The notes under the pieces were generated by a model, which saw only the letters and a list, made by a program, of their open reading frames with translations, did not search any database and was not told the origin of the DNA. From Nocardioides sp. 503 (lineage in GTDB: Bacteria > Actinomycetota > Actinomycetes > Propionibacteriales > Nocardioidaceae), in contig NZ_SPUI01000004.1 in NCBI RefSeq assembly GCF_004522095.1, forward strand, positions 496,001 to 560,000: 64,000 nt of DNA. The letters are read 5' to 3'. This document shows, piece by piece, positions 7,922 to 15,802 of the stretch. A program made the translations under genes and the position numbers. The first letter of the stretch is position 1, and each line of letters begins with the position of its first letter.

Positions 7922-10900
7922 ATGCAGATCGCCGTCCTGGGACCCGTCGAGGCGCGCGACGGCGACCGCGTGGTCGACCTCGGGACCCGGAGGCAGCGCG
8001 CCATCCTCGCGGCCCTGGCGGTCGCCGACGGCGGTCCCGTGCCGACGCCGACGGTCATCTCGCGCGTCTGGGGCGAGCACCCGCCGGCGGGGGCCCTGGC
8101 CACGCTGCACGGCTACGTCGCCGCCCTGCGTCGTGCCCTGGAGCCCGAGCGGGCTCCGCGCCAGTCGCCACGCCTGCTGGTCACCGTGGAGGGCGGCTAC
8201 GCGCTGCACGTGGCGCGGTCCGACCGCGACGTCTCCGTGCTCGAGCGGGCGGTCGCCGAGGCCCGGTCGCTGCTTGGCGACGTGCCCGACCACCTGCGTC
8301 CACGGACGGGCGGCCGAGGTCCGGAGCCGCTCCTCGAGGCGCTGGGCCTCCTCGACCACGCGCTGGGTCTGTGGCGCGGCGAGCCCTACGTCGAGCTGGG
8401 CGACGACCCCACCGCGGTGGCCGAGCGCGCCCGCCTCGGAGACCTCCGTGCGGCGGGCGAGGAGCTCCGGGTGGTCGCCCGGCTGGGGCTCGGCGGGCAC
8501 GCCGAGGTGGTGCCCGAGCTGACCCGGATGACCGTGGCCCACCCGCTGCACGAGCGGTGGTGGGCGCTGCTGGCGGTCGCCCTGGCCCGCAGCGGGCGTC
8601 AGGCGGACGCGCTCTCCGCACTGCAGTCGCTGCGCGCCCTGCTGGCCGACGAGCTCGGGGTCGACCCCAGCCAGGCGGTGCGCGAGCTGCACCTCGCGAT
8701 CCTGCGCCAGGACCCCACGCTCGACTGGGCGGGTGGCGAGGCGGGCCGGCAGGCCCACGGCCTCGACCGGGCCGCGGTCGTCCGTCGCACCCGCTACCGC
8801 GAGTCCCCGCCCCTGCCCCGCTGGCCCCTGGCCGGTCGCGTCGCCGAGACCGCCCGCCTGCGCGAGGTGCTGGCCCAGGTCGCCGGCGGACGGCCCTACG
8901 TCGTGCTCCTCACGGGGGAGGCGGGCGTCGGCAAGTCGCGGCTGACCCAGGAGCTGTCGGCGCTCGCCTTCGAGCAGGGCTTCACCGTCGCGGTGGGTCA
9001 GTGCTCGGCCGACGGTCCGCCTCCGCTGTGGCCGTGGCGCTCGATCGCCGCGTCCCTGGGCGAGCAGCTCACGGACGCCCCCGACGTGCAGCGTCTCCTC
9101 GACACCGCCCCGGCCTCGGAGTTCGCCACCTGGGACGCCGTGGCCCGGGAGGTGTGCCGTACGGCGAGGCGCAGCCCGCTGCTCCTGGTCCTCGAGGACG
9201 TCCAGTGGGCCGACGAGCCCACGCGCCGCCTGCTGGTGCACCTGCAGTCCGTGGCCCGTCACGAGCCGCTCTGCGTGGTCGTCACCGCGCGCGTCGACGC
9301 CGTGACCGACCAGGCCCTGAGCGACCTCGCGGCCGAGCTGGCGCGCGGGCAGACGCTCCGCCTGGACCTGGCCGGGCTGGCCGAGGAGGACGCGGCGGCC
9401 CTGGTCCGGGCGGTGGCGGGCACCGCGGACCGCGACTCCGTGCGGACCCTGTGGGAGCGCGCCTCGGGCAACCCCTTCTTCCTGACCGAGCTCGCCCTCT
9501 CGGGCGGTGCGCTGTCGGGCTCGCTGGCCGACGTCGTGCTCAGCCGGTTGCGCGCCCTGCCGGACGCCACCGTGGCGATTCTCGAGGCCGCGGCGGTCGT
9601 CGACGTCGTGTTCGACCTGGACCTGCTCGCGCTCACCGTCGAGCGCACCCAGGGCGAGACCGTGGAGCTGCTCGGTCCCGCGATCGAGGCGGGCCTGGTC
9701 GTCGACGAGGGCCGCGTCGACGCCGCCTACCGCTTCGCGCACGGCGTCGTCCGGGAGACCCTCCACGAGCACCAGCCGCAGCAGGTCCGGGCCGGCTGGC
9801 ACCGGGCGGTGAGCCGGGTGCTCGAGCGGCACAGCGGCCTGCGCCGTCCCGACCAGCGCGCCGTCCTCGCCCACCACTGGGAGCTCGCGGGCTACGGCCA
9901 CGTCGGGGAGGCGTGGCGCTCGGTGCTGGTGGCCGCCGAGCAGGCACGGCTGGACGGCGCCTGCGACGAGGAGGCGCGGCTGCTGCGCCGCGCCGTGGGG
10001 TGGCAGGAGCTCGACCTCGGCAGCGGTGACGGTCAGCGCTTCGAGCTGCTGATGATGCTGGCCGACGCGTGCCGGTGGAGTGCCGACTGGAGCGGTGTCT
10101 CCGACGCGGTGGACGACGCCGTGGCGGTGGCCGAGCGCCTCGGGGACCCGGTGCTCGCGGCGCGCGCCGCGATCTCGACGATGGAGGGCGCGCTGTGGCA
10201 GGTGCGTCCCTTCGGGGTCGTGCACCGGCCGATCGTCGAGGCGCTGGAGCGCGCGCTCGCCGCGCTGCCGGAGGCCGAGCGCGGCCTGCGGTGCCGGGCC
10301 CAGCTGGCGCTGGCGATGGAGCTTTACTACGGCGGCGACGTCCAGCGCATCGACTCCCTCGTGGCGCAAGCGCTCGCCGTCGCCGGGCACCTCGAGCCGC
10401 GGCTGCGCGCGGTCGCCTACCTCGGCGCGTTCTCCGCGCGCTCCCGCGCGGACGCGATGCGGGACCGCGCCCACTACGTCGCCGCGGCGCGCGAGGCAGC
10501 GGACGCCGCGGGTGACACCCGCCTGCGGCTGCTGGTCGACGCGCTGGGCGTCTCGGTCGCGAGCGAGCTCGGAGACGCCGCCGAAGTGCGTGCCGCGCTG
10601 CCGCACCTGAGCGACCAGTGCCAGCGGCGAGGGCTGGCCACGGCCGAGGCGTTCCTGCGGGTGCTCGAGGTGCCGTGGCTGACCATGTGGGGCGACCTGG
10701 AGGCCGCCGACGCGTCCCTGGTCCGGCTCGGCGAGCTCGCCCAGCGGCTGCGGATGCCCAACCTGGTCGACGCGCTCACCGTGACGACGGCGGCGCGGCA
10801 CATGCTGGCCGGCGAGTACGACGAGCTCATCGCGGCGATGGGCGCCCTCGTGGCGGACACCTCCATCCCGGCCGGCCCCGTGGCCGTGGTGGTGCTGCTG

Positions 10901-11266
10901 CGGGCGGGGCAGGTCGAGGCGGCCCGCGCCGTCCACGAGCAGCAGGGCGTCGACCTCTCCGAGGAGACCTTCGTCGGTCTGGTCTACGCCTGCCTGGCGT
11001 GCGAGATCGCGCTCGGCCTCGGGGACCGGGACCTCGCCGCCGCGGCGTACCCACTGGCCGCGCCGTACGCCGGCCGGATGTGCGCCGCGGGCAGCGCGGT
11101 GCCGATGGGACCGGTCGACGCCTTCCTGGCGTGGGGGGCGGTCGCGCTCGGGGACGACGAGGCGGCGTCGGCACACGCCGACGCCGCCGTCGCCCTCGCC
11201 CGCGAATGGGGGCTGGCGCGGGTGGAGTCCGAGGTGGTGCAGGTGCGGGAGCGCTACGCGGTCTGA
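7922..11266 (+). CDS. SARP/AfsR-type regulator with AAA ATPase and TPR-like tail
   Basis: 1114 residues. Residues 1-95 are an OmpR-like winged helix (MQIAVLGPVEARDGDR, LGTRRQRAILAALA, VISRVWG), and about 100-265 a BTAD domain, the pair that defines SARP activators. An AAA/STAND ATPase follows: Walker A GEAGVGKS (332-339) and Walker B LLLVLEDVQWAD (about 420-431). The C-terminal ~500 residues are alpha-helical and TPR-like. There is no C-terminal LuxR helix-turn-helix, so DNA binding must be N-terminal. SARPs bind tandem 7-mers spaced 11 bp; such an array lies at 14091-14141, about 3 kb away. It is usual for these proteins to switch metabolic or development genes, but no biosynthetic cluster is here. 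Its 3' end overlaps the convergent thioredoxin gene by 13 nt. Confidence 0.9.
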   Translation: MQIAVLGPVEARDGDRVVDLGTRRQRAILAALAVADGGPVPTPTVISRVWGEHPPAGALATLHGYVAALRRALEPERAPRQSPRLLVTVEGGYALHVARSDRDVSVLERAVAEARSLLGDVPDHLRPRTGGRGPEPLLEALGLLDHALGLWRGEPYVELGDDPTAVAERARLGDLRAAGEELRVVARLGLGGHAEVVPELTRMTVAHPLHERWWALLAVALARSGRQADALSALQSLRALLADELGVDPSQAVRELHLAILRQDPTLDWAGGEAGRQAHGLDRAAVVRRTRYRESPPLPRWPLAGRVAETARLREVLAQVAGGRPYVVLLTGEAGVGKSRLTQELSALAFEQGFTVAVGQCSADGPPPLWPWRSIAASLGEQLTDAPDVQRLLDTAPASEFATWDAVAREVCRTARRSPLLLVLEDVQWADEPTRRLLVHLQSVARHEPLCVVVTARVDAVTDQALSDLAAELARGQTLRLDLAGLAEEDAAALVRAVAGTADRDSVRTLWERASGNPFFLTELALSGGALSGSLADVVLSRLRALPDATVAILEAAAVVDVVFDLDLLALTVERTQGETVELLGPAIEAGLVVDEGRVDAAYRFAHGVVRETLHEHQPQQVRAGWHRAVSRVLERHSGLRRPDQRAVLAHHWELAGYGHVGEAWRSVLVAAEQARLDGACDEEARLLRRAVGWQELDLGSGDGQRFELLMMLADACRWSADWSGVSDAVDDAVAVAERLGDPVLAARAAISTMEGALWQVRPFGVVHRPIVEALERALAALPEAERGLRCRAQLALAMELYYGGDVQRIDSLVAQALAVAGHLEPRLRAVAYLGAFSARSRADAMRDRAHYVAAAREAADAAGDTRLRLLVDALGVSVASELGDAAEVRAALPHLSDQCQRRGLATAEAFLRVLEVPWLTMWGDLEAADASLVRLGELAQRLRMPNLVDALTVTTAARHMLAGEYDELIAAMGALVADTSIPAGPVAVVVLLRAGQVEAARAVHEQQGVDLSEETFVGLVYACLACEIALGLGDRDLAAAAYPLAAPYAGRMCAAGSAVPMGPVDAFLAWGAVALGDDEAASAHADAAVALAREWGLARVESEVVQVRERYAV

Positions 11267-11607
11267 GCGGCGCGGCGCCCGTCCGGTGCCAGGGCGACCA
11301 GCAGCTCGCGCACGGTGCGCCGGGGGCGCGCCCCCACGATCGAGAGCACCAGCTCGCCCGAGACGAAGACGAGCAGGGTCGGGAGGCCGGTCACCCGGTA
11401 GGCCGCGGCGGTCACGGGCTCCGCGTCCACGTCGAGGCGGACGAAGCTCATCCAGTCCAGCTCGGCGGCCAGCTCGTCCAGGACCGGCTCGAGCTGGCGG
11501 CACGGGCCGCACCAGTCGGCGTGGAAGTCGACGAGCACCGGGGTCACCGCGCCCAGCACGACGTCGCCGAAGTCGGCGTCGCCGACCCGGGCGACGACGC
11601 CGTTCAC
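11254..11607 (-). CDS. thioredoxin-family protein
   Basis: 117 residues with the classical active site WCGPCR after VDFHADW, and the cis-proline segment VTGLPTLLVF. This is thioredoxin size and cytoplasmic, so it should reduce or isomerise disulfides in protein partners. The GTG start overlaps the stop of the hemerythrin gene (GTGA), implying translational coupling. Thioredoxin next to a hemerythrin suggests joint redox work, which is inference. It is the last gene of a four-gene chain. Confidence 0.92.
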   Translation of the reverse strand: MNGVVARVGDADFGDVVLGAVTPVLVDFHADWCGPCRQLEPVLDELAAELDWMSFVRLDVDAEPVTAAAYRVTGLPTLLVFVSGELVLSIVGARPRRTVRELLVALAPDGRRAAQTA

Positions 11608-12320
11608 GCGCCCACGTCCTCGGGCACGAAGACGAACGCCGCGCGCTCCAGCCGGCCGAAGCGCGGTCGTCCCAGGCGGAGCAGGACCCGGAACGGGAGC
11701 CCGGCCTCGGCCAGGAGCGGTCGGCTGACCTCGTCCGGAAGCGCTTCGACGCACCACGGAAGGAGGCGAACGAGGTCCCCGGGTGCCAGCCCGCCGCGGA
11801 GCTCGGTGCGCTCGAGCTCGGCCCACTCCTCGCCGGGCACGTAGCGCTGGAGGATCTCGATCGCATCCTGCTCCTCGTGCCCGAGGTGGGCGCCGAGCTC
11901 GTCGCGGGCGCGCGCCAGGTCGGCGGCCAGGCCCGTCTGCGCCGTGGGGGAGGGGCCGGCGGCCAGCGAGGAGAAGCCGCTGCGCACCGCCTCCAGCAGC
12001 GGGTCGATGGTGGCGTGCTCGGCCTCCATCTCGTCGAGCACCCGGGCCGCGTCGAGGTCGCCCGCGGCCTCGACCTTGCCGCGCAGGAGTGGCCAGAGGT
12101 GCTCGTCCTCCTTGTGGTGGTGGTCGTGGAGCAGGCGGGCGAAGAGGTCCCACCGCTCGAGGAGGGCCCGCCAGGTGGCCCGCTCGTCCAGCGGGGTCAG
12201 CCGCGCGGCCGCGACGAAGCGGGCGAGGTCGCGCCGGAAGCCGTGGTGCAGCACGTACATCATCGACAGGTCGGCCGGGCCGGCCGGTGCGGCGGCCTGG
12301 CCGGGGAGGAGCGTGGTCAC
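11604..12320 (-). CDS. hemerythrin (HHE) domain protein
   Basis: 238 residues. A helical bundle with the hemerythrin ligand pattern: HHGFRRDL near residue 25, DHHHKEDEHLWP near 65, EHATIDP near 100 and HLGHEEQD near 145. These His and acidic residues could hold a di-iron centre that binds O2, NO or peroxide. The C-terminal ~70 residues (after about 165) are extra and not recognised. The GTG start overlaps the preceding SRPBCC stop by 4 nt. Such proteins act in oxygen or NO sensing and iron repair; which applies is not clear here. Confidence 0.85.
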   Translation of the reverse strand: MTTLLPGQAAAPAGPADLSMMYVLHHGFRRDLARFVAAARLTPLDERATWRALLERWDLFARLLHDHHHKEDEHLWPLLRGKVEAAGDLDAARVLDEMEAEHATIDPLLEAVRSGFSSLAAGPSPTAQTGLAADLARARDELGAHLGHEEQDAIEILQRYVPGEEWAELERTELRGGLAPGDLVRLLPWCVEALPDEVSRPLLAEAGLPFRVLLRLGRPRFGRLERAAFVFVPEDVGA

Positions 12321-12796
12321 GGGTGGACTCCTTCGGAGGGTCGGTCGTGGTGCCGGGTGAGCACCTCGGGCAGGTGGAGCAGGTCCGCGCGGTCGGCGCG
12401 GCGGTAGGAGGGGGTGAGCACCGGCGCGAACGGCCGCAGCGCCCCCATGAGCCGGACGTGCGTGGTCGTCGTGACCTCGCAGTGCCGGTCGTCGACGGGC
12501 GTGACCCGGCGGGTGCCCCGGACGAGCACCGCGCCGGACCCGCCGTCGTACGACGCACTGAGGGGGGTGGTGCGTCGTACGACGGTCTCGGTGCGGAAGG
12601 TGAGCCCGGCGAAGCGGAGCTCCTCCCGCAGGATCTGGCCGGGGCGCGCGCGCCCCGGCGGCTCGCAGGTGAAGCGGAGGACCTGGGCCCGCCACTGGGG
12701 GTCGTTGCCCCAGTCGAGGACGAAGCCGGCCACGACGGCGGCGGGCAGCGGCACCCGCACCGAGGACTCGAACGTCGTCTCGCGCCCGGCGCTCAT
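12317..12796 (-). CDS. SRPBCC-family protein
   Basis: 159 residues. The pattern is that of polyketide-cyclase/START-like lipid-binding folds: N-terminal strand TTFESSVRVPLPAAVVAGFVLDWGNDPQWRA, central strands ending in TPVDDRHCEVTTTTHV and a long C-terminal helix. Such proteins bind hydrophobic ligands or act as cyclases or hydratases. No catalytic residues could be assigned. It overlaps both neighbours by 4 nt, so it is translated with the hemerythrin and the beta-propeller gene. Confidence 0.8.
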   Translation of the reverse strand: MSAGRETTFESSVRVPLPAAVVAGFVLDWGNDPQWRAQVLRFTCEPPGRARPGQILREELRFAGLTFRTETVVRRTTPLSASYDGGSGAVLVRGTRRVTPVDDRHCEVTTTTHVRLMGALRPFAPVLTPSYRRADRADLLHLPEVLTRHHDRPSEGVHP

Positions 12797-14040
12797 CGCC
12801 GCACCCGCACGGGACGCGAGGTCGCGGTCGCCGAGCCGTGCCCGGCCTTGCGGGCCGTGGCCCGGACGACCAGGGACCGGCCGCGGTCGGCCCGGACGAC
12901 GCGGTGGGTGCGCCCGCGTCCCACGACCTTGCCGCCGCGCAGCCACTGCAGCAGCACCTGGGGACCCGGGACGTTCCAGGCGCCGGGAGCGGCCCGCAGC
13001 ATGCGGCCCACCACGGCCTTGCCGGTGATGGTGGGGCGTCGGGTGTTGCGCACGGCCACCGGCGCCGGAGCGCTCAGCGGAGCCGGTGACCAGTGCGGCT
13101 CGGAGCCGCCGGGCAGGACGAGCGTGGAGGGGACGGTGCAGTCCAGCCCTCCGGAGCGGGTCCAGATGCCGTCGTCCTCCTGCCAGGCCAGCGACGCGTC
13201 GTCGGGGCCCCAGGTCGGGTTGGTGATGCCGGGGACCGACCCGATCTGGCAGGCGTCCTCGTCGCGGGGACGGGCGGGGGGCGGCCCGCTGGTGGCGTCG
13301 CCCACCACCCGGAACCACGCTAGGTAGGTCTCTCCGCCGTCCTCGAAGACCCCCGCGAGCAGCCGCCCGTCCCGGCTCAGCTCGGTGTTGCCGAAGTCGC
13401 CCGTCTCGGTCGAGAACCAGTGCTGCTGGCGTCCCCCGAGGTCGTGCAGGTTGACGTGGGAGCCGGCACCACCTGTCTGCAGGGTCCGGGAGCTGCCGAC
13501 CCAGGAGGGGTCCCAGAAGAACGTCGAGCCGTGCTGCGCCGGGCTGGTCAGCCGGTCGGCGGCGGTGTAGCCCGTGGCCGAGCGGAAGCCGGTGCCCGGG
13601 CCCAGGTGCTTGGTGAACGTGTAGGCGATCCGCCGGCCGTCGGGGGAGATCGCCGCGTCGACCGGCATGCCGTCGATGCGGACGCCCATCGAGGTCGGCA
13701 GCGAGCCGGGGTCGATGCGGTTGAGGACGCGGCCCTGCTGGGTCATCCGCACGAGGTCCTGGTTGTAGGTGGCGACGACGGTGCCGGCGTCGGACTGTGT
13801 GGGGGAGCCGTAGGGGAACGCCGCGGTGCCGTCCTGGGTGAGCCGGCGCGCTCCGGAGCCGTCGCCGCGGGCGATCCACACGTCGTGGGAGCGGATGAAC
13901 ACGATCGTGCCGGCAGCAGTGCCTCTGCGTGCGGCCCCGGCGTCGGAGCCCGGCGCCGTGGCCGAGGAGGGGGTGGGCGAGGCGGTGAGCGCGGCCAGGG
14001 CCACGGCGCTCGCGAGGAGGGCGCGGGAGGTGCGGGACAT
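12793..14040 (-). CDS. secreted PD40/TolB-like beta-propeller protein
   Basis: 415 residues with a signal peptide (RALLASAVALAALTASPTPSSA). The middle part has repeated propeller blades: SHDVWIARGDGSGARRLTQDG, DAAISPDGRRIAYTF and NPTWGPDDASLAWQ. The last ~80 residues are a separate beta domain common in actinobacterial surface proteins (PTITGKAVVGRMLRAAPGAW, LLQWLRGGKVVG). It is probably exported and may bind a ligand or protein. It heads the four-gene chain whose other members look cytoplasmic, which is odd. Its promoter region is shared with the divergent Ig-repeat gene and carries the 11-bp repeat array. Confidence 0.82.
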   Translation of the reverse strand: MSRTSRALLASAVALAALTASPTPSSATAPGSDAGAARRGTAAGTIVFIRSHDVWIARGDGSGARRLTQDGTAAFPYGSPTQSDAGTVVATYNQDLVRMTQQGRVLNRIDPGSLPTSMGVRIDGMPVDAAISPDGRRIAYTFTKHLGPGTGFRSATGYTAADRLTSPAQHGSTFFWDPSWVGSSRTLQTGGAGSHVNLHDLGGRQQHWFSTETGDFGNTELSRDGRLLAGVFEDGGETYLAWFRVVGDATSGPPPARPRDEDACQIGSVPGITNPTWGPDDASLAWQEDDGIWTRSGGLDCTVPSTLVLPGGSEPHWSPAPLSAPAPVAVRNTRRPTITGKAVVGRMLRAAPGAWNVPGPQVLLQWLRGGKVVGRGRTHRVVRADRGRSLVVRATARKAGHGSATATSRPVRVRR

Positions 14041-14090
14041 CGGTGCTCCAGGGGGTCGGTTGCTGGTCGTCCCGACTCTGGACCTGCCCC

Positions 14091-14141
14091 CTGGGACCGC
14101 CCTGGGAGCCGAGTCCCAGCGCCGTCCCAGAGCCGTCCCAG
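14091..14141. promoter_or_regulatory. five 7-mers at 11-bp spacing (SARP-type site)
   Basis: CTGGGAC (14091), CTGGGAG (14102), GTCCCAG (14113), GTCCCAG (14124) and GTCCCAG (14135) are each separated by exactly 4 nt. The first two are the reverse complement of the last three (one mismatch), so the array is arranged for both divergent genes. A weaker match, GTCCCGA, sits two turns upstream at 14069. SARP activators are known to bind direct 7-mers with this 11-bp period just upstream of the -10. Confidence 0.6.
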
Positions 14142-14188
14142 CGCGCTCGCCCACGGTGAGGGCTCCTCCCACCAGAAAGAGACGGACC

Positions 14189-15802
14189 ATGTCTGCACCT
14201 CCCACCCCCTCCCGCCGCGTCGCCCTGGCGCTGCTGGCCGGACTCCTGCCGCTCGCCGTCCTGCTCGGCCTGCTTCCCGCCTCCTCCGCCGTCGCCTCGG
14301 CGCCCGGCGGCGGCGGTGGCGAGCCGCCCCCGCTCGACGTCACCGTCACCAAGACCCAGGAGCCGCGCTACGGCGACGACCTGGTCTTCACCGTCCGTAG
14401 CAGCGGCAGCGAGCAGACCGCCACGGTCGTGCGTGGCGACGAGGTCCTCGCCTCCCAGGAGATGACCAACAGCATCGCCCACTTCGCGATCCCCACGCTC
14501 GGTCGCTTCCGGGCCGGGACCGAGTACCGGCTCAAGGTCTTCGTCGCCACCGAGACCTCGTCCGGTGAGAGCCAGCTGACGGTGAAGCCGTGGTACGTCG
14601 GCGCCCACGTCACCATCGCCAACCCCACGATCAGCTACAGCGCCCCGCTCTACGGAGACCTGGTCCCGGACCGCGAGACGGTGGTCGAGCCCGACGGGGG
14701 CACCATGGCGATGTTCCAGGGCGAGGCGGTGCGCAGCACCTACGTGATCCGTCGCGACGGCACCTTCGCACTACGCGACCTGAGCATGACGCCGGGCGTC
14801 TACCCGCAGGCCCACGTCTACTACTCCGGCGACGCGAGCTACGGCCCGACCTCGGTCGGCATGGGCTCGTTCCTGGGCGAGGTCACGGTCGTGAGGATGC
14901 CGACCACCACCTCGGCCGCCATCAGCGGCTCCGTGGTCAGCCAGGGCGACCCCGTCTCCGTCCTGGGCGCGGCGCGGTCCGCCGACCCCGGGACGGTGGC
15001 CGACGTGAAGGGCGACCTCGTCGTCTGGGCGGCACCGGCCGGCTCCCAGGACTTCACCGAGATCGCCCGCGCCGCCTACCCCGGCGGCAACCAGGCGCTC
15101 CCCGTGTCCCTGACCGGGTGGGCGGCGGGTCGGACCGGCACCTGGACGATCCGGGTCGGGCACTCCGGCACCGACATCTCGGCGCCGTCGGTTGCCGAGG
15201 ACCTGCTGCTGACCGTCGACGCTCCCGGCGCCATGGCCACCACGACCGGTCTCACGCTCGACCGCGCGACCACGACGGCGTACGGCGCACCGGTCACCGC
15301 GACCGCGCGGGTGACCGCGGCCGACGGCAGCGTCCCCACCGGCGACGTCGCCTTCCTGGTCGGCGGCGCTCGCGTCGCGACCGTGCCCGTGCGCCCCGAC
15401 GGCAGTGCCGTCGCGAGGATCCCCGCCGGCGCCGCCGGCACGCGCGCGGTGTCGGCGACCTACCTGGGGACGACCGGCCACGCGGCCTCGTCGAGCAGTG
15501 CGCTGCCCGTGCGGGTGGCCCGGGTCGGCTCCCGGACGGTCGTCACCTCGGCGAAGGCGCGGCACCGCAAGGTCCGGCTCGGCATCCAGGTCACCTCGAC
15601 GGCGCCCGTCGCCGGCACGGTGCTCGTGCGCCTGGGCAGCAAGGTCGTCGCCCGAGGTGTGCTGAGGGCGTCCGCTCGCGGCCGGCTGGTGCTCGTGACC
15701 AAGCGGCTTCCGGCCGGACGGCGGACGCTCGTCGTCAGCTACGCCGGCTCACGCGACGTGGTGGCGTCCCGGTCCCGCGCGAAGGTCGTGCGGGTGCGCT
15801 GA
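14189..15802 (+). CDS. secreted Ig-like repeat protein
   Basis: 537 residues. The signal peptide is RRVALALLAGLLPLAVLLGLLPASSAVASA, and an SD-like AGAAAGAGA precedes the ATG. The mature part is beta-rich with several Ig-like units: TVTKTQEPRYGDDLVFTV near 50, a middle region at about 150-340, and an Ig_3-type unit at about 350-450 (TTTAYGAPVTATARV, GTRAVSATYLGTTGHA). A final basic beta unit ends in KVVRVR. It shares the Ig_3 style with the LamG protein at the window start. No enzyme domain or anchor was seen. It is probably an extracellular structural or binding protein under the control of the 11-bp array. Confidence 0.8.
   Translation: MSAPPTPSRRVALALLAGLLPLAVLLGLLPASSAVASAPGGGGGEPPPLDVTVTKTQEPRYGDDLVFTVRSSGSEQTATVVRGDEVLASQEMTNSIAHFAIPTLGRFRAGTEYRLKVFVATETSSGESQLTVKPWYVGAHVTIANPTISYSAPLYGDLVPDRETVVEPDGGTMAMFQGEAVRSTYVIRRDGTFALRDLSMTPGVYPQAHVYYSGDASYGPTSVGMGSFLGEVTVVRMPTTTSAAISGSVVSQGDPVSVLGAARSADPGTVADVKGDLVVWAAPAGSQDFTEIARAAYPGGNQALPVSLTGWAAGRTGTWTIRVGHSGTDISAPSVAEDLLLTVDAPGAMATTTGLTLDRATTTAYGAPVTATARVTAADGSVPTGDVAFLVGGARVATVPVRPDGSAVARIPAGAAGTRAVSATYLGTTGHAASSSSALPVRVARVGSRTVVTSAKARHRKVRLGIQVTSTAPVAGTVLVRLGSKVVARGVLRASARGRLVLVTKRLPAGRRTLVVSYAGSRDVVASRSRAKVVRVR

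Follow-up and report, generated by a model that had tools for sequence, protein, structure and literature searches.

Probable back-to-back SARP operators between divergent genes beside a large SARP gene in Nocardioides sp. 503

SARPs are known chiefly as activators of antibiotic clusters, and the SARP operator is a known kind of element. The heptamer of the small SARPs ActII-ORF4 and DnrI is TCGAGCG. Sections of PMC10936776 describe SARP promoters with repeats 11 or 22 bp apart and the 3′ repeat 8 bp from the −10 element; at afsS the −10 element is CACTGT, the downstream repeat spans −29 to −19, and AfsR T88 and R92 contact repeat bases 5 and 3. Sections of PMC10972967 report three-repeat sites for ActII-ORF4 and DnrI and a PhoP site that overlaps the AfsR repeats at afsS, and a section of PMC5930380 gives CGGCAAG as the SARP-LAL heptamer. 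Among open-licence PMC papers, we found neither the box described below, nor its regulon, nor a hemerythrin–SARP link.

The window, a 64-kb stretch of the Nocardioides sp. 503 genome, contains a 148-bp intergenic gap (14041–14188) flanked by start codons at 14040 (−) and 14189 (+). Within the gap lie five boxes at a step of exactly 11 bp (CTGGGAC, CTGGGAG and three copies of GTCCCAG, starting at 14091, 14102, 14113, 14124 and 14135), whose orientation flips after the second box; the earlier note had placed all five heptamers, their steps and the switch correctly. Judged from sequence comparison, the gap very probably holds two back-to-back SARP operators, with the local large SARP as the most likely activator of both units. 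The features concerned are as follows.

7922..11266, + strand: large SARP of 1114 aa (Trans_reg_C + BTAD + AAA_16, Pfam), the proposed activator
11254..11607, − strand: thioredoxin (Pfam), at the distal end of the left unit; overlaps the stop codon of the hemerythrin gene
11604..12320, − strand: hemerythrin HHE protein (Pfam), its GTG start overlapping the SRPBCC stop
12317..12796, − strand: SRPBCC / Polyketide_cyc2 protein (Pfam)
12793..14040, − strand: propeller-like protein, first gene of the left unit (PD40 at 20.6 bits, cut-off 20.9)
14075..14080, − strand: CAGAGT, predicted −10 element for the left promoter, 10 bp past the last box (from the fixed spacing in relatives)
14091..14097, − strand: promoter-proximal box of the left operator, GTCCCAG on the − strand (from the sequence)
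14102..14108, − strand: second box of the left operator, CTCCCAG on the − strand (from the sequence)
14113..14119, + strand: distal box of the right operator, GTCCCAG (from the sequence)
14124..14130, + strand: middle box of the right operator, GTCCCAG (from the sequence)
14135..14141, + strand: promoter-proximal box of the right operator, GTCCCAG (from the sequence)
14152..14157, + strand: CACGGT, predicted −10 element for the right promoter, 10 bp past the last box (from the fixed spacing in relatives)
14189..15802, + strand: Ig-like protein (Big_3_5, Pfam), the gene of the right promoter

The left unit runs in the order propeller, SRPBCC, hemerythrin and thioredoxin, neighbouring genes overlapping at their stop and start codons, and the right transcription unit is the Ig-like gene alone. 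Both the propeller-like and the Ig-like protein have signal-like N-termini, as judged by eye, and are predicted to be exported. The neighbours named in the earlier note (SARP, hemerythrin, thioredoxin, propeller-like and Ig-like proteins) are all present, with the Polyketide_cyc2 (SRPBCC) gene in addition. The SARP gene and the left unit are convergent, and 2.8 kb separate the end of the SARP gene from the array. Its product carries the Pfam domains Trans_reg_C (PF00486), BTAD (PF03704), AAA_16 (303–453) and AAA_22, giving the layout of a large SARP: an OmpR-type DNA-binding domain, then BTAD, and a C-terminal NOD/AAA ATPase. Residues 1–273 match the solved structures of AfsR (8hvr, E 7e-36) and EmbR (2fez, E 1.6e-25). 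A Pfam search at E 1e-3 found no TPR family, and the C-terminal part has no Pfam assignment. Upstream of this SARP gene itself, no such operator site was found.

The five-box array (14091–14141) is not a product of chance. It is the best phased five-box array in the window, with a total mismatch of 1; the best arrays in 300 dinucleotide-preserving shuffles had total mismatches of 4 (8 shuffles), 5 (63), 6 (190) or 7 (39). The genome search for GTCCCAG-n4-GTCCCAG that the earlier note had proposed returned two exact matches in the whole genome, both in this gap. When the box pair was combined with the −10 position, the gap's two promoters were the sole matches with 0–1 mismatch in the genome, and with up to three mismatches there was no excess (17 matches versus 36 for a reversed control). 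The bare pair occurs in 10 of 147 genus genomes, this one included, and its reversed control is commoner. Enrichment thus belongs to the full geometry beside SARP genes, and the bare pair is not enriched.

We searched the SARP against 215 genus genomes at E 1e-150 and obtained matches in 41. Identity was 84% in G166, 75% in G079, 62% in G141, 61% in G178, 58% in G080 and in G047, 49% in G164 (over residues 2–658), 47% in G033, 44% in a second G178 copy and 43% in G042, and at most 42% in the remaining matches among the 41 genomes. The G166 locus is L131 (Nocardioides lijunqiniae S-531), and the first G178 gene lies in L132 (Nocardioides sp. URHA0020). Nearest relatives were defined by at least 43% identity, leaving out G141, whose contig ends inside the SARP. 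All nine testable loci of these full-length relatives carry at least one site, defined as two or more boxes on an 11-bp step plus a hexamer with A2/T6 located 10 bp downstream: three sites in L095 and in L213, two in L096 and in L131, and at least one in L104, L112, L113, L132 and L212. Six of the nine loci (L112, L113, L131, L132, L212 and L213) were chosen by their SARP alone; L096 was also found by the box pattern, and L095 and L104 were found by the propeller. The 11-bp spacing, whose absence from relatives the earlier note had named as grounds for refutation, is therefore kept beside the nearest SARP relatives, together with the 10-bp gap and the orientation toward genes.

In N. lijunqiniae (L131), the gene order from SARP to PNPOX is identical to that of the window, and each direction has three boxes of its own; between the innermost boxes of the opposing triplets, the start-to-start distance is 21 bp, off the 11-bp phase. 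Because L131 has a separate triplet per direction, the operator unit is a direct repeat, and the 2 + 3 boxes of the window are two abutted operators. The earlier proposal of one array driving two operons thus holds in that the array lies between divergent genes, and is amended in that it consists of two abutted direct-repeat operators. The abutment of divergent operators also explains the inverted symmetry, which could instead be taken for an RNA or DNA hairpin, that is, a 5′ UTR structure or terminator with complementary outward arms. The segment 14085–14147 does fold better than its shuffles (z −3.50 on the + strand and −4.65 on the − strand), as do the arrays of L131 (−4.12) and L096 (−5.48). 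However, one-direction arrays exist (L097, L113, L120 and L212); moreover, with a 10-bp gap separating the boxes from the −10-like hexamers, on either side the predicted start site lies downstream of the array, and the array is therefore predicted to be in neither mRNA. We regard the hairpin as very improbable.

An accident of 11-bp slippage, leaving a functionless tandem duplication, seems even more far-fetched. TRF does find an 11-bp repeat of 2.9 copies at 14113–14144, and a tandem run of GTCCCAGGCAT copies in L009 (G136, ~1495–1560) may be such a case of plain slippage. Against slippage, relatives with 43–84% SARP identity differ in spacers and copy number but retain the boxes, at a fixed distance from the hexamer.

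Several other loci show variations on this arrangement. Among 17 propeller-homolog loci, the array recurs in L019 (G033) besides the window's own locus and is degenerate in L018 (G140); the others have no phased GTCCCAG array. Upstream of a propeller homolog in L029 (1430–1458, reverse complement; G146), CAGGGAC, GTCCCTG and CCGGGAC follow each other at 11-bp steps in alternating orientation. The propeller of L112 (12700–12900; G079) seems internally deleted, its signal-like start and last residues being left in a short frame, and a SARP-type promoter is retained upstream of the SRPBCC gene. In L094, L099, L106, L122 and L123, SARPs matched over the N-terminal part only adjoin propeller genes, and CCAG-type arrays lie ahead of FAD oxidases, propellers and hemerythrins. 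The start codon lies 31 and 34 nt from the hexamers in the window and 6–7 nt past the hexamer at relatives' sites in L095, L096, L097, L104, L113, L120, L132 and L218; this spacing suggests that transcripts from these eight may be leaderless.

The geometry was quantified in nine loci, window included. Box pairs with at most one mismatch per box peaked at a step of 11 (21 pairs), followed by 22 (8 pairs), and the A2/T6 positions of a −10 hexamer stood exactly 10 bp past 10 of 17 array ends, the next most frequent distance being 21 (3 ends; 10 + 11). A two-box composite (boxes, gap and NANNNT, with up to two mismatches) gave seven matches, in six of eight SARP-related loci, and none in 29 others, where L097 is one of the eight that was picked by its boxes and L120 was grouped after its site had been seen; leaving out L097 gives six matches in a set of seven loci. 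Forty permuted boxes in the same composite averaged 0.05 matches in the SARP-related loci and 0.10 in the others. When three boxes were sought generically, with no letters fixed, the gap of 10 did not stand out, because heptamers slide in register.

Twelve SARP loci (L115–L119 and L124–L130) came from the 29 negatives. Ten of them have the same architecture, with a box that is mostly CTCCAAG or a near variant; among the twelve, it was not seen in L128 and L130. The letters of a three-box pattern were taken from this look at twelve loci (NNYC(C/A)AG three times, step 11, gap 10, then NANNNT, with at most two mismatches), and the pattern was written after 40 further SARP loci had been fetched. 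In the full set of 69 Nocardioides SARP loci (1.25 Mb), it has 91 sites in 65 loci, including 39 of the 40 later-fetched ones. Control gaps of 5–9 and 11–15 gave 0–4 sites, control steps of 8–10 and 12–14 gave 0–1, and five block shuffles gave 1–4. Among the 69, no three-box site was found in L112 and L132, which have two-box sites only, or in L130 and L224; L130 has the recognition helix of the window, TLHGYVAALRRAL, yet no site in its fetched 20 kb. Twelve loci without a match to the SARP N-terminal domain (239 kb) contain two three-box sites, one of them L097. In the named loci L133–L209 (n = 77, among the matches listed; L134 and L135 duplicate loci of the genus set), there are 20 sites at gap 10 and at most 5 at other gaps, and 14 of these 20, again among the matches listed, are outside Nocardioides. 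Within three-box sites, position 4 is C, position 6 A and position 7 G in at least 82%, frequencies that lean on the search pattern.

The box also varies with the SARP. The window's SARP group uses CCCAG and most paralogs CCAAG. In a midpoint-rooted tree of 59 SARP domains, the window's group comprises 15 rows (SH-aLRT 93); base 5 of the box is C in the majority for all 15 rows and A in the majority for 38 of the 44 others. Across the 59 loci, G or not-G at SARP residue 64 is associated with a C or A majority at base 5 (Fisher p 0.013). This does not establish a code leading from residue 64 to base 5: with only three supported independent pairs in the tree, such a rule cannot be told apart from shared ancestry. 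SARPs with the helix QGYVAG are found with an asymmetric operator, mostly before MMPL genes, in which the middle box has C and the outer boxes A at position 5 (A-C-A, 10 sites; L231, L233, L235–L238, L240 and L243–L245).

These distributions bear on the possibility that a different OmpR/PhoB-type winged-helix regulator, either a response regulator or another SARP of this genome, binds the repeats. In its favor, PhoP is a response regulator and overlaps the AfsR repeats at afsS, according to sections of PMC10972967, and the linkage between SARP and array is genomic, not biochemical, in kind. Nor is that linkage absolute: in G047, the SARP gene is 35 kb away from an array of four direct boxes plus hexamer (L097, 9466–9505). 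This hexamer is separated by 6 nt from the ATG of a gene whose product has a signal-like N-terminus, possibly a distant regulon member with a leaderless start. On the other hand, sites accompany nearly all fetched SARP loci (65 of 69), base 5 of the box tracks the SARP group, and the only 0–1 mismatch sites of this genome adjoin the local SARP. We consider another regulator unlikely. The array, its spacing, its conservation and its genomic linkage to SARP genes strongly support in silico the SARP-operator reading of the earlier note.

Under the SARP-operator reading, downstream of each operator would lie a promoter whose −10 element is weak and which has no recognisable −35. The SARP encoded at 7922–11266 most likely binds the 11-bp repeats as head-to-tail protomers and would recruit RNA polymerase as AfsR does, acting as an activator and not as a repressor. 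Rightward, it would switch on the Ig-like protein, predicted to be exported; leftward, the propeller–SRPBCC–hemerythrin–thioredoxin operon.

An ORF of at least 50 aa starts within 110 nt past each of the 91 three-box sites, a weak test because the DNA is so GC-rich, and some picks are plainly wrong frames. BLAST grouped the proteins behind 82 of the 91 sites into six clusters: FAD oxidases (29), MMPL proteins (23), hemerythrins (12), propellers (11), Ig-like proteins (4) and SRPBCC proteins (3), with 9 singletons; the Pfam check covered nine chosen proteins. Hemerythrin genes occur in 42 of the 69 genus SARP loci, where about one is expected in 1.25 Mb given 45 hemerythrin domains in ~58 Mb (13 genus genomes), although the two counts come from different tools (BLAST versus HMM) and the loci are related. 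In the named loci L131–L209, among the matches listed, 20 of 79 have a hemerythrin at E 1e-4, some of them weak; named hemerythrin–SARP loci include Geodermatophilus, Nocardia, Kribbella and Nonomuraea. Ten residues are invariant in ten members of the hemerythrin family (H25, H26, H65, H67, H68, E71, H102, H145, H148 and E149), putative diiron ligands by the general pattern of the family. Hemerythrin may be a SARP partner.

It is conceivable, though on balance doubtful, that large SARP ATPases act together with hemerythrins as a signalling module, widespread among actinobacteria and outside antibiotic biosynthesis, that responds to redox state, oxygen or NO. In that case, the SARP would read NNYC(C/A)AG arrays, in which the letter at position 5 is specific to the SARP group, and activate its hemerythrin together with interchangeable effectors (exported propeller or Ig proteins, an FAD oxidase, or MMPL), and the window's array would be one example, legible in sequence, of an operator code shared across the family. 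With this fixed geometry, sequence could indicate likely targets for dozens of large SARPs that are as yet uncharacterised. The natural box variants (CCCAG, CCAAG and mixed A-C-A) offer material for studying box choice by the recognition helix, and the tie of SARPs to hemerythrins and exported proteins gives a lead on what SARP ATPases sense.

Among described systems, AfsR/afsS of S. coelicolor, as portrayed in sections of PMC10936776 and PMC10972967, likewise combines a large SARP (ODB, BTAD and NOD) with two 11-bp direct repeats and a weak −10 element (CACTGT at afsS; CACGGT and CAGAGT, both predicted, here). If the afsS −10 spans −12 to −7, which is our own reading, both systems have an 11-bp repeat, 6 bp and then the hexamer. 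The box differs, being CGTT(T/C)ATCGNN in the quoted part of PMC10972967 versus GTCCCAGCGNN here, with A6, C8 and G9 in common. AfsR T88 and R92 align with G64 and A68 of the window's SARP, numbering having been placed via the residue pattern. AfsR has a TPR domain and targets afsS and antibiotics, whereas the window's SARP has no Pfam TPR match and its putative targets are exported proteins (predicted) and hemerythrin.

The PimR/SanG/PolR SARP-LALs, as far as the section of PMC5930380 goes, are also large SARPs with two or three heptamers and 4-bp spacers. Their CGGCAAG has C4, A6 and G7 in common with GTCCCAG and five of seven letters with the paralog box CTCCAAG. It differs from GTCCCAG at letters 1–3 and 5, and with three of seven letters shared, assignment to the PimR-type SARP-LAL operator was rejected. 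In that section, the main PimR operator does not overlap the −35, and the targets are antibiotic regulators or clusters. The earlier contrast with a TCGAGxx-type consensus stands in that GTCCCAG differs from it, and is too narrow in that TCGAGxx is not the sole published comparison, CGGCAAG sharing C4, A6 and G7 with the box.

Repeats number two leftward and three rightward in the window and two to four in relatives, all direct heptamers at an 11-bp step, 11 and 22 bp being the steps published for SARP operators. ActII-ORF4 and DnrI are small SARPs of antibiotic clusters that likewise use direct heptamers; read in a shifted register as CCCAGCG, the box shares five of seven letters with TCGAGCG, differs at letters 1 and 3, and ends 8 bp before the hexamer. 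The 10-bp distance of the GTCCCAG register is the same as 8 bp in this one, and with the predicted hexamers as −10 elements, both sides of the gap agree, after alignment of the register, with the geometry published for SARPs.
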